Source: Bacteroidota bacterium (GTDB lineage Bacteria > Bacteroidota > Bacteroidia > Chitinophagales > Chitinophagaceae). From it: a stretch of DNA of 64,000 nt. Location: assembly GCA_028875875.1 (NCBI GenBank), contig JAGWUV010000016.1, forward strand, positions 1-64,000. Direction: 5' to 3'. The notes under the pieces were generated by a model. The model worked only from the letters and a program-made list of their open reading frames with translations, was not told the DNA's origin and searched no databases. Made by a program: the position numbers and the translations under genes. Within the stretch, counting starts at the first letter, position 1. Each line of letters opens with the position of its first letter. Positions 4,729-30,160 of this stretch are shown piece by piece.

Positions 4729-6840
4729 ATGGATGTAAAACGCGACATATTATGGAGGGTGTACCTGAGTTATATAGTGGTTGCTATTGTAGGATTGGTA
4801 ATTTTTGGTAAAGCAGTTTATATACAACAGGTGCAGGGGAAGCATTGGCGAAGTTTGAGCGATAGTCTGCATCAAAAAATAGTAGAGGTAGACGCAGAAA
4901 GAGGAACGATTTATAGTGAAGATGGTCAGATGTTAAGTACTAGTATTCCTCAGTTTGATGTATATATAGATTTTGCGGCAGATGGTTTGCGTGAAAAGAA
5001 TGGGAAGCGGTTTAAAGAGAATATAGATTCTTTGAGTTATTGTTTGGCGGGGCTTTTTAAAGATCAGTCTGCGTTGGCTTACAAGAGGGTATTGCAGCAG
5101 GGGTATGTGGATAAGGACAGGTATTTTTTGTTAAAGAGAAATATTTCGTATCGCGATTATCAGCAATTGAAAAGTTTTCCTTTGGTGCGATTAGGGAAAA
5201 ATAAAAGTGGTTTTATTGCTGAGGATAAAAGTATCCGTTTGAATCCTTATAAAAATCTTGCGTTCAGAACAATTGGATTGGCAAGGGATTCTTTTAAGGT
5301 TGGATTAGAAATGACGTATGATAGTGTATTGAAAGGTAAGAGTGGTAATAGGTTGGTAAGGTACATTGCAGGTGGCGTAAGTGTTCCGGTGGAAGGTGGT
5401 TATGAAAGTGAAGCGGAAGATGGAAAAGATATTGTAACTACCCTGGATGTTTTTATTCAGGAGGTTGCGGAGGAGGCTCTGATGAAGGAGATGATAAAAA
5501 ATGAAGCTGAACATGGTTGTGCCTTAGTAATGGAGACAAAAACTGGTAAGATAAAAGCAATAGCAAATCTTGGAAGAAGAAGTGATGGAAATTATTATGA
5601 AGATTTTAATTATGCGATTAGTCCTACAGAGCCGGGTTCAACATTTAAGCTGGCTACAATGATAGCCTTGCTGGAGGATAAAAAAGTTTCTTTGAATTCT
5701 ACTGTAAACCTTGAGGGGGGAACTTGGAAGGTAGCTGATAGAACAGTGTTTGATAGTGAGAAGCATGGAAGGTATGAAGTAACTGTAAAGCAGGCCTTTG
5801 AATTGAGTTCGAATGTGGGTATGGCTAAGCTGGCATTATTTAATTATGGATCAGCGCCAAGTCAGTTCATCAGGCATTTGCATCAGTTACGTATGGACAC
5901 GCTAACAGGTATTGATCTTACAGGAGAAAGAAGTCCTGTGATATTTAAACCTGGTAGTAGATTTTGGAGTGCAACAACCTTGCCATGGATGGCCTTTGGT
6001 TATAATATATTGGTTTCGCCATTGCAAACCTTAACGCTTTATAATGCTGTGGCTAATAATGGAGTGATGATGAGGCCTTATTTGGTGAGTACTATTAAAG
6101 ATCAAGGTGTGGCGCTGAGAGAAATTGAGCCGAGGGTTGTTGATGAAAAGATCTGTAGTGAGGCAACTTTGAAACAGTTGAAAGAGTGCTTGGAAGGGGT
6201 TTGTACGGAAGGTACAGCTAAGGAGCTTTTTAAAGGTAGTTCTTATAAAGTTGCAGGTAAAACAGGTACTGCTTTAGTGGCTAACGGTAGTAGAGGTTAT
6301 GAAGATCATATTTATCAGTCTTCATTTGCGGGATATTTTCCTGCTGATAACCCTCAGTACACATGTGTTGTGGTAATTAAGAATAAGCCTTTTGCTCAGG
6401 TGTTTTATGGGGCTTCGGTTGCAGGGCCTGTTTTTAAAGAGATAGCAGATAGATTGTACACAACCTTTGTAAAGCAATCGAACTACGCTTCTCAAAAGAA
6501 TATTCGAAAAGATAGTAGTGTATTCAGTTATGCGGGATATGGAACAGATGTGAAAGATGTAATGAAATCGCTAAGTTGGAATTTTAAAGACTCGTCGGGA
6601 ATAGATATGGATTGGGTAAATGTAAGTGCTCGTAATGGTTCTGTTGTTGTTGCGAATAGAAAAACAGATGTAAATAAAATGCCTTTACTAAAGGGGTTGG
6701 GTTTGAAAGATGCGGTGTATGTATGTGAAGAAATGGGTTTAAAAGTAGATGTTAAAGGTAGGGGTAGGGTTGTGGAGCAGTCGGTATTGGCGGGACAATC
6801 CATAGCAAAAGGTCAAATGATCAAAATAATATTAAACTAA
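4729..6840 (+). CDS. ftsI: FtsI/PBP3-type D,D-transpeptidase with C-terminal PASTA domain
   Basis: Class B penicillin-binding protein that crosslinks septal peptidoglycan. Its single N-terminal membrane helix is at ~10-30 (VYLSYIVVAIVGLVIFGKAV). The PBP dimerisation domain starts near DAERGTIYSEDG. The transpeptidase domain has all three active-site motifs: S304-T-F-K307, S360-S-N362 and K511-T-G513. The last ~60 residues form one PASTA-like domain (LKDAVYVCEEMGLKVDVKGRGRVVEQ). At 703 aa it is longer than E. coli FtsI (588) because of the N-terminal region and PASTA. Its expected partner FtsW is encoded downstream. The stop is 2 bases from the murE start. A perfect DnaA 9-mer at 5106-5114 falls inside the YVDK codons and is probably coincidental. 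Confidence 0.96.
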   Translation: MDVKRDILWRVYLSYIVVAIVGLVIFGKAVYIQQVQGKHWRSLSDSLHQKIVEVDAERGTIYSEDGQMLSTSIPQFDVYIDFAADGLREKNGKRFKENIDSLSYCLAGLFKDQSALAYKRVLQQGYVDKDRYFLLKRNISYRDYQQLKSFPLVRLGKNKSGFIAEDKSIRLNPYKNLAFRTIGLARDSFKVGLEMTYDSVLKGKSGNRLVRYIAGGVSVPVEGGYESEAEDGKDIVTTLDVFIQEVAEEALMKEMIKNEAEHGCALVMETKTGKIKAIANLGRRSDGNYYEDFNYAISPTEPGSTFKLATMIALLEDKKVSLNSTVNLEGGTWKVADRTVFDSEKHGRYEVTVKQAFELSSNVGMAKLALFNYGSAPSQFIRHLHQLRMDTLTGIDLTGERSPVIFKPGSRFWSATTLPWMAFGYNILVSPLQTLTLYNAVANNGVMMRPYLVSTIKDQGVALREIEPRVVDEKICSEATLKQLKECLEGVCTEGTAKELFKGSSYKVAGKTGTALVANGSRGYEDHIYQSSFAGYFPADNPQYTCVVVIKNKPFAQVFYGASVAGPVFKEIADRLYTTFVKQSNYASQKNIRKDSSVFSYAGYGTDVKDVMKSLSWNFKDSSGIDMDWVNVSARNGSVVVANRKTDVNKMPLLKGLGLKDAVYVCEEMGLKVDVKGRGRVVEQSVLAGQSIAKGQMIKIILN

Positions 6841-22159: not shown

Positions 22160-23257
22160 TTAGCGTAAAGTTTTCAGCCACTTTCTCAGGCATTTCAATA
22201 CGCTGGTTTCATTTTTTTTGATAGAAAAATTCTGGTCATAATCCCATAGCACAGTTGCAATGCTGTTCATGTGAAGTATAGATGTTATGTCTGCCAGGTA
22301 TTGTTTTCTGTATTTCAGTTTAGCCTCATCTATAACACCGGTTTCTGTGCAGATCAAAGGCATATTGTGTGCTTCACAATAATCGGCTATGCTTTTGATT
22401 CTTTCTGAAAGATACGCTTTCGTAGCTTCAAATGGATATTTGTCATAATCTCTTTCAACAGATGTGCCCTTGGTTTTTTTAGGCTTCGCCGGCATTTTAC
22501 TTTTTTGATAAGGATAGGGCAACCCGGTTATGTAAGTTTTATCTATGGTCCAGCTGGCTCCCTGGTGGGTAAAAATGTAAGGGTCGTAAAAATGAAAAGT
22601 ATACAGGAGTTTTTTATCATCAATAGGTGGAAGGTTCTTAAGCTCATCAATATTATTATAGTTGGTTCCTCCAATGATATACACCCGTTGGTCATCTTCA
22701 TATCTTAAATAACTTACTAGAGTTACGGCTGTTTTAGCCCATTGATCAGGGCTTAGTGTAGGTTCATTGTATAACTCGAAGAATAAACTGCCATACCCCT
22801 TTCCCCTGAAGTGATTTTGTATTTGTTTCCATATCCATGATATCCGGTCTGTTTCGCCGGGGATATTACTATCGGTTAATTTACCATAATGGTAGGTGAG
22901 TATAAGATTTAGATGAAAGTGATTGCATTGCTCAAAAATGGCACTAAGTTTATTAAGTAACTCCGGTTGTAGGTTGGATGAGTTGGGTTGCAGGAAAAGA
23001 TCGAATGCTACGGGAAGGCGTAAGGTTGAAAAGCCCGCTTTGGAAATATTTTTCAGTTGACTGGTAATATCTTCCTGTAAAATATCGTTTGATTTATGCC
23101 AGTATTGTTCAAATAAAGAAAGGTTCACACCGCCCCCTAACTTCTTCTCCCAAAAGGCATTAAGAGCGTTGGGTTGTGCACGTAATGTGGATAGTGAAAC
23201 CATTGATAAAATATTTATCCAGAAAAAAAGTCTTACCATTATAATAATTATTTTCAC
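22160..23257 (-). CDS. secreted glycoside hydrolase family 5 (endoglucanase-like)
   Basis: Exported (beta/alpha)8 hydrolase. A signal peptide of ~28 residues ends near STLRAQ. The acid/base Glu165 lies in FFELYNEP and the nucleophile Glu305 in LICTETG, the two GH5 catalytic signatures, with SKAGFSTLRLPVAF upstream as in GH5 cellulases. Length 365 aa, single domain, no carbohydrate-binding module. It is transcribed divergently, 39 bases from the kinase-like gene that opens the glucan-synthesis operon, so it probably plays the trimming role that BcsZ (GH8) has in cellulose operons. Residue 7 is an alternative start. The ABC exporter genes follow it on the same strand. Confidence 0.88.
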   Translation of the reverse strand: MKIIIIMVRLFFWINILSMVSLSTLRAQPNALNAFWEKKLGGGVNLSLFEQYWHKSNDILQEDITSQLKNISKAGFSTLRLPVAFDLFLQPNSSNLQPELLNKLSAIFEQCNHFHLNLILTYHYGKLTDSNIPGETDRISWIWKQIQNHFRGKGYGSLFFELYNEPTLSPDQWAKTAVTLVSYLRYEDDQRVYIIGGTNYNNIDELKNLPPIDDKKLLYTFHFYDPYIFTHQGASWTIDKTYITGLPYPYQKSKMPAKPKKTKGTSVERDYDKYPFEATKAYLSERIKSIADYCEAHNMPLICTETGVIDEAKLKYRKQYLADITSILHMNSIATVLWDYDQNFSIKKNETSVLKCLRKWLKTLR

Positions 23258-23296
23258 GTAATAATGTCTTGAGTTTCAGACTGCATAATAACAAAT

Positions 23297-24670
23297 ATGT
23301 CTAACAATTTTAAATTTTCATATGTTAACATAAACAAAGAGGTTCTGGAAGAAGAAGTCAGTAAGAGGGGTTTGTACTTTACAAATGTGGTGGTATGGAC
23401 GGTTCTTTTTTCTCTCCCTTTGTTTTGGTTGTTAGATTATTTGTTTCTAAGGAATTCATGGACTGATCTTTTTTTGGTGAGATTGATTGTTGGTATTATA
23501 TCTTATGTTATCTACTTCGCCAGTCTTCGTTTAAAATGGAATTATAAATTTACGCTTGCTTTTTTTATTGGGGTAAATGTTTTACTTAATTCAGTTATTT
23601 GCGGTGTGCTGCCTGAATCGAATGTAATGCCCCACTTCTTTGTGTTTTCAATTATGATGCTTCTTTTGAACACAACTTTGTTCTGGCCTGCTTTTTATCC
23701 AGTATTAATGTCTTTGTTCTCATACCTTGTTATCATTATTATTTACGCTTTTAAGCCTCGTTTCGACAGGTATAATCTTTTGATCATTCACGGAGGGGGG
23801 GTGTATTTCATTGTTTCTGCTTTTTCATGTTTAATTGCCTATAATCGTTACCTGATTTTAAAAAGAGAGATCGCAAAAAGTATTCTTATTGATGAAGCGA
23901 ATAACAGGTTACTTGAGCAAAATGAAAAAATTAACGACCAGCGTTATGTAATTGAGGATGCCAACAGGAAGCTAAAAATTCTGAATGATTACAGGCATAA
24001 TACCATGAACATGATGCTGCATGATTTTAAAAATTTTACAGGGTCTATCCAGATGTCATTGGATCTGTTAAAGAATAAATCTGAGAATCTTACAGCTGAA
24101 CAAAAGGAAATCATCAATTACATAGGTATTGGTAACGAGAAATTGAACTATCTGTCTGAAAAGTTGGCTAACTCAGCAGATAGAGATGAGGCGAAGATTG
24201 ATTTTAATTTTGCGAACATTGATATTAATTCTGAGGTTGAAACCACTGTTATAGATGTAGCAGATGCCGCTCAGATGAAGCAGATAGGATTGCAATTGCA
24301 CTTGTCTCCGGCTCCGATCATGGTATTCCTGGATAAACTATTCTTGAGCCAGGTATTGTTTAAGCTCATGAATAATGTGATCCGGTATGCTGAAAGAGGT
24401 TCGGTTATTACGGTTCATACGCACAGTGTTAATGAAAAATGTGTGCTGGAAGTGATCAATATAGGTAAGCTCATCGGGAAAGATAAGCTTGATGAATTGT
24501 TCAATAAATTACAACCTTACAGGTCATTAAGAGATTCCATTCAGTCTGAAGCTGAAATGGGATTTTCTGTTGTAAAAAAATTAACTGAATCAATGGGTGG
24601 TCAATTAACCTATAACAGTGATGAAACAACAGGTAATTACTACCGTATTGAGTTTAATAGTACCCATTAA
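23297..24670 (+). CDS. six-helix membrane histidine kinase-like protein, degenerate ATPase site
   Basis: N-terminal ~200 residues form about six membrane helices with no known sensor domain, followed by a coiled coil (LIDEANNRLLEQNEKINDQRYVIEDANRKLKIL). A DHp-like helix with His242 in MLHDFKNFTGSIQMSLDLL comes next, then a HATPase-like domain. The N-box survives as LMNNVIRYAERG, but the DxGxG (G1) box is replaced by INIGKLIG, and G2 reads EMGFSVVKKL. ATP binding is therefore doubtful and the protein may act as a scaffold or phosphatase-like sensor. It is the first gene of the glucan operon and its 3' end nearly abuts the bcsB-like gene. No response regulator is nearby. Confidence 0.8.
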   Translation: MSNNFKFSYVNINKEVLEEEVSKRGLYFTNVVVWTVLFSLPLFWLLDYLFLRNSWTDLFLVRLIVGIISYVIYFASLRLKWNYKFTLAFFIGVNVLLNSVICGVLPESNVMPHFFVFSIMMLLLNTTLFWPAFYPVLMSLFSYLVIIIIYAFKPRFDRYNLLIIHGGGVYFIVSAFSCLIAYNRYLILKREIAKSILIDEANNRLLEQNEKINDQRYVIEDANRKLKILNDYRHNTMNMMLHDFKNFTGSIQMSLDLLKNKSENLTAEQKEIINYIGIGNEKLNYLSEKLANSADRDEAKIDFNFANIDINSEVETTVIDVADAAQMKQIGLQLHLSPAPIMVFLDKLFLSQVLFKLMNNVIRYAERGSVITVHTHSVNEKCVLEVINIGKLIGKDKLDELFNKLQPYRSLRDSIQSEAEMGFSVVKKLTESMGGQLTYNSDETTGNYYRIEFNSTH

Positions 24671-24680
24671 AAGAAACGAT

Positions 24681-26702
24681 ATGAAAATCAAATTGCTATT
24701 TGCTGTCCTATTAATGATGTGTTCAGGAGCCTTGTTGGCTCAGTCTGAAAGATCATTCGAGTCAATGGGATATGATGATCAGTCTATCGTTGGTATTACC
24801 GGTTCGCTGAGCTACTTCATAAAAATCAAGCCTGATGATAATGTAGATCAGAGTAAGGTAATCCTTCATATCAGAGCTTCACAAGTGTTAAACCCCAGGA
24901 ACTCTTTTGTAATTGTTTCTTTAAAAGACGAGCCTGTGTTTACGCAGAATATTGTTGCTTCTGCTGTTGATACCATGTTTACAATTACCGTTCCCCTGGC
25001 AAGAAAATATCTTCAGCCCGATGGAAGGTTCATCAAACTGAAAGTATCTGCTAAACTCAGTGTGGGTGACGAATATTGTAAAGACGTAGACAATCCTTCC
25101 TGCTGGATTGCAGTAAAGAACTCTTCTTCCATTGTTACTACCTACGATGCGGTTGCTTCTTACCAGCGTAGCTTAAAGGAATGGATTCAGGAGTTTAATT
25201 CTGTATATACTCCAGCTACTGCAGACCTTGACGATCTTACCGGTGGTGGTATAATCTATACTTTATTAAAACAAGGTGGTGCTAAAACGGTAGTGTGTGG
25301 TACGTATCAACAAGATTCTGTGCCCGGAGGAATTATAGTGGGCCTTGCGGATCGTTTGCCTGTTGCTGTAAAACAAGCAATCCCTTCATTAGGTCAAGGT
25401 CAAGGTTTAATTACACTGGCTCGTGTAAACAGCGGAGCATTTACTAAAATAGTAATGGTTATAACAGGTGCTGATGCTACCGGCTATAAAAAAGCTATCA
25501 ATACTTTGGCCAGCAATAAAAGGCTGAGTGGTGCATTTACGGATAAAATGATCATTAATGAAGGTGTTCCCAGTAACGTAGCTGTAGATAATCCATCACC
25601 ATTGATTACTACGTTAGAAGACCTTGGTGGTGTACCTGCTATGATGGAAGGTATAGGAGCTCTTCGACAAAAATATATTTTCTCACTAACTGAGTTTAAT
25701 GCTATTCCTAACAAACTTACTTTTCATTTAGAAAGTTATTTTTCTGTTCTAAAACCAGATGATCGCGGTTTCTTAAATATCTATCTTAATCAAAACCTTA
25801 TCTACAATGCTTCTTTGATGGATAGGCCGAATTTTATTGAGGACATAGATTTGAAACCATACTTGCTCAGTAAGTTTAATACTTTAGAGGTAGAGTTTAG
25901 GTTTCATCCCGGTACTAACATATGTAAAGATGGCTTCAGTAACTTCTTTGCATTTGTAAATACGCGAACTTCTACATTAACATTCTCCGGTGAAAGAGAA
26001 AACAAATTTTACAGTTTCTTCAACTTCCCTGCAGAGTTTAGAAAAGTACCATCTAAAATTATTGTTTCACCATCATTATTTAATGCTAATGTGGTTTCTT
26101 CAATTGGCGAAATTTACTACCAGTTAAATTCACCAATTAAAAACGATTTCAACAAGTTGATTGTTCCTCAATTAGTGTCTACCGATAAAACAAATCTGGA
26201 TGATCTGAAAGGATTTAACCTGATTGCTTTATTGGGGAGAAATGATGCTTTTATGAAGAATTTTGGTCATTTACCTGTTCAGTACGATAAAGATTTTCAA
26301 CTATACAAAGACAGTAAAGGTCAACTTACTTACTCTCTTAATGATTTTTCTAATAGTGGTATGGCTCAGATATTCAGAGAAAATGGTAGTACCGTATTAC
26401 TTGTTACTTCTCTTGGAGACAGCAGCCGTAAAGAGGCATTTGAAAGTGTGATCAAGAATTTTAGTACACAGCTTACAGAAATAGAAAGTAATGTTTGTAT
26501 TGCCAATAGTAATGGTATTAGTAACTACTTCTTTAAAATACCCGAAGACAGCAACTCTGTTTTATATAAAGGAGAAAGAAGCGGCCTTTCTATTTTCTGG
26601 GAAACATATAGGTTCTGGATTTTGGGAATATTGCTGATTTTGGTATTGCTTGCATTCTTCTTTGTAAGGAATAAGGTTAGAAAATCTCAGGAAATTGTAT
26701 AA
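24681..26702 (+). CDS. BcsB-like periplasmic cellulose synthase subunit
   Basis: Exported protein with signal peptide ~1-21 (LLFAVLLMMCSGALLAQ), a ~620-residue periplasmic region and one C-terminal membrane helix (FWILGILLILVLLAFFFV) with a basic cytoplasmic tail: the BcsB layout, in which the last helix packs against the synthase. Two repeats each combine a jelly-roll-like part and an alpha/beta part; typical BcsB traits are GGIIVGLADRLP, VIVTGA-type strands and FRFHPGTNICKDGFSNFFAFVNTRTSTL. The 673 aa length is in the BcsB range. The start at 24681 fits the signal peptide; the frame is open back to 24618 inside the preceding gene. The next gene, a GT2 synthase, begins 29 bases later. Confidence 0.85.
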   Translation: MKIKLLFAVLLMMCSGALLAQSERSFESMGYDDQSIVGITGSLSYFIKIKPDDNVDQSKVILHIRASQVLNPRNSFVIVSLKDEPVFTQNIVASAVDTMFTITVPLARKYLQPDGRFIKLKVSAKLSVGDEYCKDVDNPSCWIAVKNSSSIVTTYDAVASYQRSLKEWIQEFNSVYTPATADLDDLTGGGIIYTLLKQGGAKTVVCGTYQQDSVPGGIIVGLADRLPVAVKQAIPSLGQGQGLITLARVNSGAFTKIVMVITGADATGYKKAINTLASNKRLSGAFTDKMIINEGVPSNVAVDNPSPLITTLEDLGGVPAMMEGIGALRQKYIFSLTEFNAIPNKLTFHLESYFSVLKPDDRGFLNIYLNQNLIYNASLMDRPNFIEDIDLKPYLLSKFNTLEVEFRFHPGTNICKDGFSNFFAFVNTRTSTLTFSGERENKFYSFFNFPAEFRKVPSKIIVSPSLFNANVVSSIGEIYYQLNSPIKNDFNKLIVPQLVSTDKTNLDDLKGFNLIALLGRNDAFMKNFGHLPVQYDKDFQLYKDSKGQLTYSLNDFSNSGMAQIFRENGSTVLLVTSLGDSSRKEAFESVIKNFSTQLTEIESNVCIANSNGISNYFFKIPEDSNSVLYKGERSGLSIFWETYRFWILGILLILVLLAFFFVRNKVRKSQEIV

Positions 26703-26731
26703 GCTTTTCAGTTAAAACGTAAGCAAAGCCT

Positions 26732-28585
26732 ATGTCCCGCTGTGCATTGCATAAAATGGTGGATGCCGGTTTATTTAAAGTAAACCGGTTGGAAGAAGTA
26801 GAATTTATTTCTGAGAAGTATAGCTATGCTCCCATAAAAGCTGCACTAAACTTTGGTTTTCTTGTTCGTAGAAGCTATACGGACTTTTTGAAGAAAGAAA
26901 ACTATCCGTTGATAGACGTAAGGAATGAACAAATTGATGAGGTATATATTAATCAATGCGACATACAGCACTTAAATTCTTTCTTATATCTGCCTTTGCG
27001 AAAAGATACTGAAGGCAATCTCTTAATTGCGGCAGCCGACCCCCTGGATGAAAAACTTGAAAAAAGCCTTATCGTAAAATTCAAAATGCCTGTTAAAATG
27101 CTGGCAGCATCCGATTTGGATATCATTTGGCTGGCTCACAAATTAAGAGGTGAATTTCATGTAAAAGAAGCTGTTTTTAGCCTCATGCGTAAAGATCCGG
27201 CTAGTTCCGGACTGGTAACGTTCACTAATGCCCAGTTGATATTCATTTTCGGGTTTCTGGCATTTACGTTTATTATGCTAATCCTGTTCTTTATTCCAAC
27301 GATCATTGTAATCAACCTTCTTTCTAGTGTTATCTTCTTATTTTCTATTCTTTTCAAACTTTATCTTGCGTTAAAAGGCTCCATGTCAGAACTGCATGAG
27401 GTTGTAACAAAAGAGGATATTAAGAAAGTTAAAGAAGAAACACTGCCGGTTTACACGATTTTGTTGCCTGTTTATAAGGAAGATAAACTGATCAGGAAAC
27501 TGATATGGAATCTGCGAAGCCTTGATTATCCCAGAAGTAAGCTCGATGTGAAACTTTTGATAGAAGAAGATGATGATAAAACCTTGAATGCCTTACGTGA
27601 ACTGGATTTTCCTGCCAACTTCGAAGTTATTGTGGTGCCTTTTCATATGCCGAAAACGAAACCCAAAGCATGCAATTATGGTCTATTCTTTTCAAGAGGC
27701 GAGTATCTTACCATTTATGATGCCGAAGATGTACCGGATTCAAACCAATTGAAAAAAGTAGTGGTGTTATTCCGCAGGTTGCCCGAAGAATTTGTAGTAG
27801 TGCAGGGTGCCTTGAACTATTTTAATAAAAATGAGAACCTGCTTACACGCATGTTTACACTGGAATATTCTTATTGGTTTGATTATATGTTGCCCGGTCT
27901 TGAAACTTTAGATGTTCCCATTCCATTGGGAGGAACCAGCAATCATTTTAAACTGGATAAGCTTATTGAGCTTGGTGCGTGGGATCCGTTTAACGTTACA
28001 GAAGATGCGGATTTAGGAGTTCGGGTATATGATAAGGGGTATAAAATTGGTGTGGCTAACAGTACCACATTGGAAGAGGCCAATAATGAATTTTTTAACT
28101 GGATCCGCCAGCGCTCAAGATGGATCAAAGGATATATGCAAACGTACCTTGTACATATGCGTAATCCTGTTAAACTGGTACGAAGGATTGGGTGGGGTGG
28201 TTTCTTTGGATTCAACTTTTTTATTGGAGGAACTTCATTTACATTCCTGTTATATCCGGTGTTGTTATTCTTTTTTGTACTGTATCTTATTTTCAAATTT
28301 GCAGGTATTAGAGAAGTATTCCCTGACTGGGTACTTTATGTTTCTATCTTTAATTTCATTGCAGGAAATGTGCTGATGGTGTATGTAAATATGTTAGCAG
28401 TATTTAAAAGAAGGTATTATGAGCTGATCTTGTTTGCAATACTTAATCCCATTTACTGGTTAATGCATTCAAGGGCAGCTTATAAAGGATTATGGCAATT
28501 AATTACCAAGCCTTTTTATTGGGAAAAAACAAATCATGGACTAACAAAAGTTTCTGTATCAAGCAGTGCGTCTGCAGTTACTTAA
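26732..28585 (+). CDS. GT2 beta-glycan synthase with N-terminal GspE/MshEN-like domain
   Basis: Processive family 2 glycosyltransferase, the presumed catalytic subunit of the locus. Residues ~1-150 resemble the T2SSE_N/MshEN domain of GspE and PilB (PLRKDTEGNLLIAAADPLDEKLEKSL is its most recognisable stretch). Two membrane helices follow (~165-210), then the GT-A domain with D330-AED, the acid pair E424-DADLG and the product-channel motif Q460-RSRW464, then about four C-terminal helices. No PilZ domain is present. MshEN domains bind c-di-GMP in some proteins, so the N-domain could replace PilZ as a switch; this is inference. The architecture resembles XagB-type glycan synthases. Length 617 aa. 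The product (cellulose or another beta-glucan) cannot be told. Confidence 0.87.
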   Translation: MSRCALHKMVDAGLFKVNRLEEVEFISEKYSYAPIKAALNFGFLVRRSYTDFLKKENYPLIDVRNEQIDEVYINQCDIQHLNSFLYLPLRKDTEGNLLIAAADPLDEKLEKSLIVKFKMPVKMLAASDLDIIWLAHKLRGEFHVKEAVFSLMRKDPASSGLVTFTNAQLIFIFGFLAFTFIMLILFFIPTIIVINLLSSVIFLFSILFKLYLALKGSMSELHEVVTKEDIKKVKEETLPVYTILLPVYKEDKLIRKLIWNLRSLDYPRSKLDVKLLIEEDDDKTLNALRELDFPANFEVIVVPFHMPKTKPKACNYGLFFSRGEYLTIYDAEDVPDSNQLKKVVVLFRRLPEEFVVVQGALNYFNKNENLLTRMFTLEYSYWFDYMLPGLETLDVPIPLGGTSNHFKLDKLIELGAWDPFNVTEDADLGVRVYDKGYKIGVANSTTLEEANNEFFNWIRQRSRWIKGYMQTYLVHMRNPVKLVRRIGWGGFFGFNFFIGGTSFTFLLYPVLLFFFVLYLIFKFAGIREVFPDWVLYVSIFNFIAGNVLMVYVNMLAVFKRRYYELILFAILNPIYWLMHSRAAYKGLWQLITKPFYWEKTNHGLTKVSVSSSASAVT

Positions 28586-28588
28586 TCT

Positions 28589-30160
28589 ATGGACTTTCTT
28601 AAAAAGTATATATCGATCTTCATCTCAATTTTATTACTCGGGTATTACCTGGTAATAGCATGGGCTTTGCATCGCTCGGGCTTTGAACATTCAGAAGCTT
28701 TGTTTGTGGCAGAGAAGATTAAGCTTTTATTTGAATCAAGTCAGAATACACTGCTCACTTTAGGTACTACTTTTCCAAGTCTTATCTTTTTATCATCTGC
28801 AGTATTTACTCCATTCGGATATCCTTTTGCACCAGTATTAGCATCGGTAATATTTACAGTTTTACTTTTTCTATACCTGTTAAATGATTTTGATAGTTCT
28901 GCATTACCACGGAAGGTTTTTATTCCTATTTTATTGCTGTTGTTTGTTTTTCATCCGGGATTTATTTATAGCGCCGTTTCGGGAAGAGGCGTAGCAGCTA
29001 TTCTTTTTTTCTTCTACATGGTATTCAGAAGTTTGTTTAAGTATTACAATACACAAACAACCTTCTATCTTTCTATGGCAAGTATTTTTCTGGCTTGTCT
29101 TATTTTTTCAGATTTTAATTTTATCTGGCTGATCTTATCTTTTATCCCTTTTATTTTTCTTGTTTCTTTAGAAGGGCTTAAAGTATCAAAAGATCAATCA
29201 CCCATATTTCAATATTTCGAAGCGTTGAATATACGTTCTCAAAGAAGAAAATTGGTAAACAGAACAGTAGCCATTTATATCATCATTTTCTTATTGCCTT
29301 TAGGTGCTATTTATTTGTTTAGAACCCTGAACTACACACACGCCGGTGATGCTACCTATTTCTTAACCAGTCAATACGCTAACTGGCATGTTACCGGAAA
29401 TGAAACAGTTGGGGGCATGATAGCGAATGGTAATGATGTAGATGTGCCTGAACAATCGCAGATCATATTACAGGCTTATATTTTACTGCTAACACCAATG
29501 CTTATTTTGGTTTTCTTTTTATTTAAAGGAAAATTATATGAATTATTTACACTGTTAGCACCTTTTGTTCTTATATCTGTAATTCTTTTAAACGTTCAGT
29601 ATTACATCACCATCGAGTATTTTATGATATTCCTTGTGTTGGCCTTGTTGGGCATTTGTATTTATGCAGGGAAACGATATACTTCTAAAATGATGTATCC
29701 GATTATATTGGGTGTTGCTATTCTTAATGTATTCACAGGTATCTATTATTTCAATAATACTGATGATGCGGAGGAAAAATTTTTCTTTGCAAAACTGAAG
29801 GACTCACGTAAATGGAGAAATGAGAGGAACTCGAGTGAAGAATACCAGTTAGCTGCCTATATTTCAGATCTTGCTGATGAAACACATCGTATTTTAATGG
29901 ATGATGCTGCTGCTTATAAAATAATGGCACATATGCGTTCATTGAAATCTGTTATCATGCCTATTGATAATAATTTTATCACTGTAGTAGAAAACCCGAA
30001 AGTAGGGGCCAGGTTTATTTGTGTAGCAAAGAATAATAACAGGTTAAAGAGCTTTACCGTTTTGAATGAGTTTAATATAAATAAGATGGCCGAACGGCAA
30101 GAATTTGTGCCTATGCTAATGTTTGAAACAAAGCACTGGGCCGTTTACAAGGTTATTTAA
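28589..30160 (+). CDS. polytopic membrane protein of the glycan locus, function unknown
   Basis: Starts 3 bases after the synthase stop, so it is certainly co-transcribed. About ten to eleven hydrophobic helices over residues 1-395 are followed by a soluble C-terminal domain of ~130 residues (from DDAEEKFFFAKLKDSRKW). The GT-C-like topology (large helical N-part, soluble tail) suggests a lipid-linked sugar transferase or a polysaccharide transport/modification subunit, but I see no catalytic motif I can name. It ends 8 bases inside the convergent prmC gene. Confidence 0.75.
   Translation: MDFLKKYISIFISILLLGYYLVIAWALHRSGFEHSEALFVAEKIKLLFESSQNTLLTLGTTFPSLIFLSSAVFTPFGYPFAPVLASVIFTVLLFLYLLNDFDSSALPRKVFIPILLLLFVFHPGFIYSAVSGRGVAAILFFFYMVFRSLFKYYNTQTTFYLSMASIFLACLIFSDFNFIWLILSFIPFIFLVSLEGLKVSKDQSPIFQYFEALNIRSQRRKLVNRTVAIYIIIFLLPLGAIYLFRTLNYTHAGDATYFLTSQYANWHVTGNETVGGMIANGNDVDVPEQSQIILQAYILLLTPMLILVFFLFKGKLYELFTLLAPFVLISVILLNVQYYITIEYFMIFLVLALLGICIYAGKRYTSKMMYPIILGVAILNVFTGIYYFNNTDDAEEKFFFAKLKDSRKWRNERNSSEEYQLAAYISDLADETHRILMDDAAAYKIMAHMRSLKSVIMPIDNNFITVVENPKVGARFICVAKNNNRLKSFTVLNEFNINKMAERQEFVPMLMFETKHWAVYKVI

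Follow-up and report, generated by a model that had tools for sequence, protein, structure and literature searches.

In our best reading, which we hold at a probability of about 0.6, a locus of the Chitinophagaceae (Bacteroidota) encodes a beta-glycan synthase of the sfz/xag type whose N-terminal MshEN domain, related to receptors of cyclic di-GMP (c-di-GMP), would now act as a protein-contact module, perhaps for a histidine kinase-like membrane protein encoded in the same locus. The locus lies at positions 22160-30160 of the 64,000-nucleotide stretch analyzed here (assembly GCA_028875875.1, contig JAGWUV010000016.1), referred to below as the window. The evidence consists of a well-preserved MshEN fold from which the c-di-GMP contact residues have disappeared, together with the near absence of c-di-GMP-synthesizing enzymes from the Bacteroidota that carry the locus.

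The N-Terminal Domain Keeps the MshEN Fold Without the c-di-GMP Contacts

The processive glycosyltransferase family 2 (GT2) synthase (26732..28585, + strand) begins with a domain spanning residues 1-150 (26732..27181, + strand), within which Pfam MshEN (PF05157) matches residues 57-141 (26900..27154, + strand) with 35.4 bits against a cut-off of 23.1. The AlphaFold2 model of this N-domain, built from an alignment of 63 homologous N-domains, has a mean confidence (pLDDT) of 95, and structural comparisons using Foldseek and VIA-align retrieved GSPII-A of Thermus thermophilus PilF as the best match, along with XpsE-N, MshE and PilB-N (Z scores of 13.3 to 9g1w, 12.1 to 2d28 and 11.1 to 5htl). These matches bear out the T2SSE_N/MshEN (GspE-type) assignment that an earlier, sequence-only reading of this DNA had made. 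PilF GSPII-A, XpsE-N and PilB-N share the fold, although they belong to traffic ATPases and not to glycosyltransferases; partner-bound complexes are also found among the matches (PilB-PilZ, 7lko; GspE-GspL, 4pht). The same reading had regarded the architecture as unusual, and the idea of a new architecture had to be dropped, as MshEN-glycosyltransferase fusions have been published (PMC5013675; PMC8669469; PMC8250860) and full-length relatives are spread over many phyla, at least 589 relatives having been retrieved from genomes across species.

MshE binds c-di-GMP through a tandem pair of the motif RLGxx..G....L...L..Q (PMC5013675). We scored 14 contact positions, including a subset of six polar or glycine positions (R, G and Q, twice each), in 41 Bacteroidota sequences and 45 others. 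The N-domain of the window retains the motif spacing, G13 and G42 being 29 residues apart as are G18 and G47 of MshE. C-A-L and A-P-I replace R-L-G, and S and E replace the two glutamines, so that 4 of 14 contact positions remain and R, L, the third-position G and Q are absent from both motifs. Over the 14 positions the mean is 3.2 in Bacteroidota (range 1-5) versus 9.1 in the others, and over the six R/G/Q positions 0.02 versus 3.5; the R, G and Q contacts are missing from all 41 Bacteroidota sequences, with the exception of one position in one of them. The domain is nevertheless under constraint, since K36, G42 and R46 are invariant in 39/39 Bacteroidota rows. Lack of binding has been reported for related N-domains, both for XpsE-N (PMC5013675) and for PilF GSPII-A, which shows small deviations from the motif (PMC12002112).

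A maximum-likelihood tree was computed for the GT2 core; its root, placed with the distant and very long-branched outgroup L009, serves for drawing only and is not trusted. The main Bacteroidota group is recovered with support of 96/92 when locus L071 is included and of 100/99 without it, and every member has a degenerate motif; two long-branched Bacteroidota loci, L072 and L113, fall outside this group. The degenerate or intact state changes about seven times over the tree, indicating that the motif has also decayed elsewhere, for instance in alphaproteobacteria and Microbacteriaceae. Loss rather than gain of the motif in Bacteroidota is the simpler interpretation, though not proven, and is favored because ATPases outside the family have intact motifs.

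c-di-GMP Is Unlikely to Be the Signal

No GGDEF domain was found in 14 of the 15 Bacteroidota carriers, nor in any of nine further ones (23/24 altogether), the positive controls behaving as expected, whereas all 14 non-Bacteroidota carrier genomes contain between 3 and 87 each. EAL domains were absent from the eight genomes searched, and PilZ has no Pfam match on the GT2 protein or anywhere in 15 carrier genomes. The exception is the genome of the window itself, which has one GGDEF gene (L002:1234-1995; G000:C54:11247-11708). This gene is located between a CD-NTase (cGAS/DncV-like nucleotidyltransferase) gene of the anti-phage system CBASS (PDLC00774, 4e-105) and a Fic gene (SoFic); a fragment similar to a phospholipase effector comes before the CD-NTase gene. 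The GGDEF gene may encode a defence nucleotide cyclase.

The sequence-only reading had proposed that the N-domain is a c-di-GMP switch replacing PilZ. In favor of a working switch one can cite the fold, which is that of MshE, the intact motifs of relatives from other phyla, the lone GGDEF gene just described and the precedent of Escherichia coli NfrB, a MshEN-GT2 protein under c-di-GMP control in which the order of the domains is reversed (PMC8669469). However, the ligand residues, whose lack that reading had itself named as grounds for refutation, are missing throughout the Bacteroidota sequences, PilF GSPII-A, whose deviations from the motif are described as small, does not bind, nearly all carriers are devoid of GGDEF, and the sole GGDEF gene sits in a defence context. 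The loss of the motif combined with the lack of GGDEF, PilZ and EAL thus makes a c-di-GMP switch very unlikely, and we have rejected it.

A Histidine Kinase-Like Protein as Candidate Input

With the c-di-GMP-binding residues lost in Bacteroidota, and diguanylate cyclases missing from nearly all carriers, control of the synthase must come from elsewhere. The first + strand gene of the locus (23297..24670) encodes a membrane protein of the histidine kinase type, as judged from its HATPase_c domain (Pfam, 53.7 bits, above the cut-off) and an HDFKN H-box. A table of motifs across relatives shows that the window protein keeps H242 and N360, whereas the Asp of the G1 box is replaced by Asn388 and the G2 box is altered, so that the full set of kinase motifs is not present. 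The Mucilaginibacter kinase is canonical, with its motifs intact. Within the family of the window, Asn usually takes the place of the G1 Asp, and L064 and L075 have lost the phospho-acceptor His; Flavobacteriaceae retain little of the motifs. The gene adjoins that of the BcsB-like subunit in nearly all Bacteroidota loci; several lineages have lost H, N-box or G1 residues. No response regulator was found among the scanned flanking proteins or is apparent among the window ORFs (open reading frames), in a search that was not exhaustive.

The N-domain would descend from a c-di-GMP receptor of which the Bacteroidota have kept the fold and not the binding motif, and it most likely provides the synthase with a module for protein contacts, much as the N-domains of GspE-type proteins and PilB do with their partners. 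The histidine kinase-like protein is the most likely input and would operate by contact where its catalytic residues are lost. Several observations weigh against this interpretation. The genome of the window does possess a GGDEF gene, and motif loss is also seen in alphaproteobacteria that have GGDEFs (L125, L132), so that it does not require the absence of c-di-GMP. Two divergent Bacteroidota loci (L071, L072) have no adjacent kinase gene; the Mucilaginibacter kinase looks fully active and may therefore work in the ordinary way, through a response regulator located far from it. Moreover, motif loss and kinase presence in Bacteroidota each amount to about one event on the tree, hence their association is not independent evidence, and the link between a degenerate MshEN and the kinase is suggestive only.

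The intact Mucilaginibacter kinase, and the lack of a response regulator among the flanking genes scanned, a situation shared with many orphan kinases, would suit a purely structural remnant on a synthase whose transcription is controlled via the kinase and a response regulator encoded elsewhere. We regard this as possible, yet doubtful: a remnant does not readily account for the invariance of K36, G42 and R46, and in several lineages the kinase gene stays in the operon after its catalytic residues have been lost. Somewhat less probable still is binding of another small ligand, a different nucleotide or a sugar nucleotide, for which K36, R46 and R64 would supply new contacts. That the N-domain persists over deep divergence, its conserved fold carrying basic residues that vary little or not at all, would be consistent with this, but R46 is frequent in canonical relatives as well and may therefore serve contact with the synthase. 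Returning to the contact-module reading, its most elaborate form is likewise unlikely when taken as a whole: the Bacteroidota synthase would have lost c-di-GMP control and gained control from a histidine kinase-derived membrane protein touching the dead MshEN domain, this protein having turned, in several lineages, into a pseudokinase subunit, and a partner with a GT-C glycosyltransferase fold would modify the emerging chain.

The Synthase, Its Partners and the Product

In this family of systems, a processive GT2 enzyme and BcsB together carry out synthesis and translocation of a beta-glycan, which a hydrolase trims. The catalytic core of the window synthase (residues 239-470; 27446..28141, + strand) scores above the cut-off of Pfam Glyco_trans_2_3, has BcsA as its nearest solved relative and displays the motifs D281, D330-AED (residues 330-333), TED (423-425) and QRSRW (460-464), all invariant in 15 orthologues. 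The preceding gene (24681..26702, + strand, likely start ATG) encodes a BcsB-like periplasmic subunit with a signal peptide and a C-terminal membrane anchor (Pfam PF03170, 68.4 bits against a cut-off of 21), and such a gene adjoins that of the synthase in the Bacteroidota loci. The divergently oriented gene (22160..23257, - strand) specifies a secreted endoglucanase-like enzyme of glycoside hydrolase family 5 (GH5; Pfam PF00150 Cellulase, 105.7 bits, above the cut-off), for which the closest solved structure is endoglucanase CelC (1cec, E 1.4e-29) and whose catalytic residues Glu165 (NEP) and Glu305 (ETG) are each retained by at least 95% of the 32 sequences compared. The assignment of a BcsA/BcsB-like beta-glycan synthase locus with a secreted GH5 enzyme, as previously proposed, is therefore supported by the GT2 motifs and by the BcsB and GH5 families. 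The absence of a BcsC-like porin noted at the same time also extends further, as no match to BCSC_C (PF05420) was obtained in the genome of the window and nine relatives (10 genomes; the E. coli control was positive), and no outer-membrane porin was seen in the Chitinophagaceae and Mucilaginibacter loci. In some Bacteroidota, an ORF of ~280 residues for a secreted, beta-barrel-like protein without Pfam match lies between the BcsB and GT2 genes (L069:9175-10011; L070:7235-8383; L098:5036-5896; L099, L101 and L102 at about 5075-5952), a candidate for an exporter replacing BcsC. A second, distant GT2 domain occurs in an open frame of ~1120-1190 residues in many genomes of the family (about 22-27% identical; G000:C5:57768-58718 and relatives).

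The last gene (28589..30160, + strand) encodes a polytopic protein that matches no Pfam family. Its AlphaFold2 model (pLDDT 87.8, pTM 0.89) has exclusively GT-C enzymes as top matches in the PDB (Z 18.2 to Pmt4, 17.9 to ArnT), and Glu36, in the first outer loop, is Glu in 41 of 52 sequences and Asp in two. Within the Mariprofundus cluster, the profile of this protein also recovers the third gene (L105:7824-9368, 1e-25; L108:7809-9338, 2e-22), which by position and size corresponds to Sfz3, described as a protein of function unknown (PMC8250860). The polytopic partner is hence predicted from its modeled structure, and Sfz3 from its homology to it, to have a GT-C glycosyltransferase fold, an assignment that is new.

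Taken together, the synthase would polymerize a nucleotide sugar and thread the chain across the inner membrane, where it would reach the BcsB-like subunit. On the outer side, the partner with the GT-C fold would probably act on the chain or on a sugar linked to a lipid, and the secreted GH5 enzyme would trim or release the chain in the manner of GH8 BcsZ or GH5 CcsZ, the product being presumably a cellulose-like or mixed beta-glycan. That it is plain cellulose, with GH5 in place of BcsZ, is compatible with any reading of the N-domain, and the proximity of the synthase to BcsA and of the GH5 enzyme to cellulases speaks for it. We nonetheless consider it improbable, as the synthase scores 55.8 bits against the CelA equivalog, where the cut-off is 699.1, and slightly better against PgaC (61.1 bits, itself far under the PgaC cut-off). 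In addition, the Bcs systems described so far are not known to include a GT-C partner.

Gene Order and Conservation

All five ORFs listed by the sequence-only reading are present, including the polytopic partner 3 nt downstream of the synthase. The four + strand genes (kinase-like, BcsB-like, GT2, polytopic) look like one operon because they are separated by gaps of 10, 29 and 3 nt. In the survey of Bacteroidota that had been suggested, all five genes appeared in the same order in Mucilaginibacter and in five further genera of the Chitinophagaceae, which implies that the gene set is not due to chance. In L062, from another genus of the family, the whole segment is collinear, genes beyond the five included; Flavobacteriaceae keep the gene set although the GH5 gene has moved, and other Bacteroidota are less complete. 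In Sediminibacterium salmoneum the ORF of the synthase is broken into two frames (L096:5986-7871), and in Wenyingzhuangia marina a stop lies within the BcsB-like ORF (L101:3079-5133), through either mutation or sequencing error.

Relation to Known Systems and Significance

The closest described arrangement is Sfz1-Sfz2-Sfz3 of the Mariprofundus stalk formation cluster (PMC8250860), with a BcsB-like gene, a T2SSE_N-GT2 synthase and a partner of ~500 residues, all three of which are adjacent in the window, L105 and L108 alike. Mariprofundus differs by its largely canonical motif (9-10 of 14 positions), by the 16 and 35 GGDEFs of the two genomes, by the lack of any match to a co-encoded histidine kinase and by a hydrolase, Sfz4, described as a family 10 enzyme. 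The MshEN-GT2 protein of L119, which we take from the literature, and not from a sequence search, to be XagB of the Xanthomonas xag cluster, is 45% identical over residues 42-616; its motif retains 9 of 14 positions, its genome has 27 GGDEFs and no BcsB match adjoins it. NfrB also combines a processive GT2 with MshEN, but there the domain is C-terminal, intact and binds c-di-GMP, and the partners are NfrA and YbcH, not BcsB (PMC8669469). With BcsA-BcsB the locus shares the GT2 motifs and the BcsB partner; it lacks PilZ and BcsC, and has instead the MshEN N-domain, the GT-C partner and GH5 for GH8. The ccsZABHI cluster of Clostridia likewise pairs a GH5 hydrolase with a GT2 synthase without BcsC, although CcsA has PilZ and CcsB is not a BcsB homologue (PMC7710045). 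Our literature search found no papers on the Bacteroidota version of the locus. The type of locus is thus known but little studied, the Bacteroidota version being best read as a variant of the sfz/xag layout; what is new here is the predicted GT-C fold of the partner and a histidine kinase that is intact in Mucilaginibacter and has lost catalytic residues in other lineages.

Synthase-dependent exopolysaccharides are a textbook output of c-di-GMP signaling. In the locus described here a receptor-shaped domain and its synthase persist in bacteria almost all of which are without c-di-GMP synthases, and the co-encoded kinase-like protein provides a testable candidate for the replacement control. 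The predicted GT-C fold of the conserved partner, which includes the third gene of the Mariprofundus iron-stalk cluster, suggests that the product is a modified or lipid-linked polymer and not bare cellulose.

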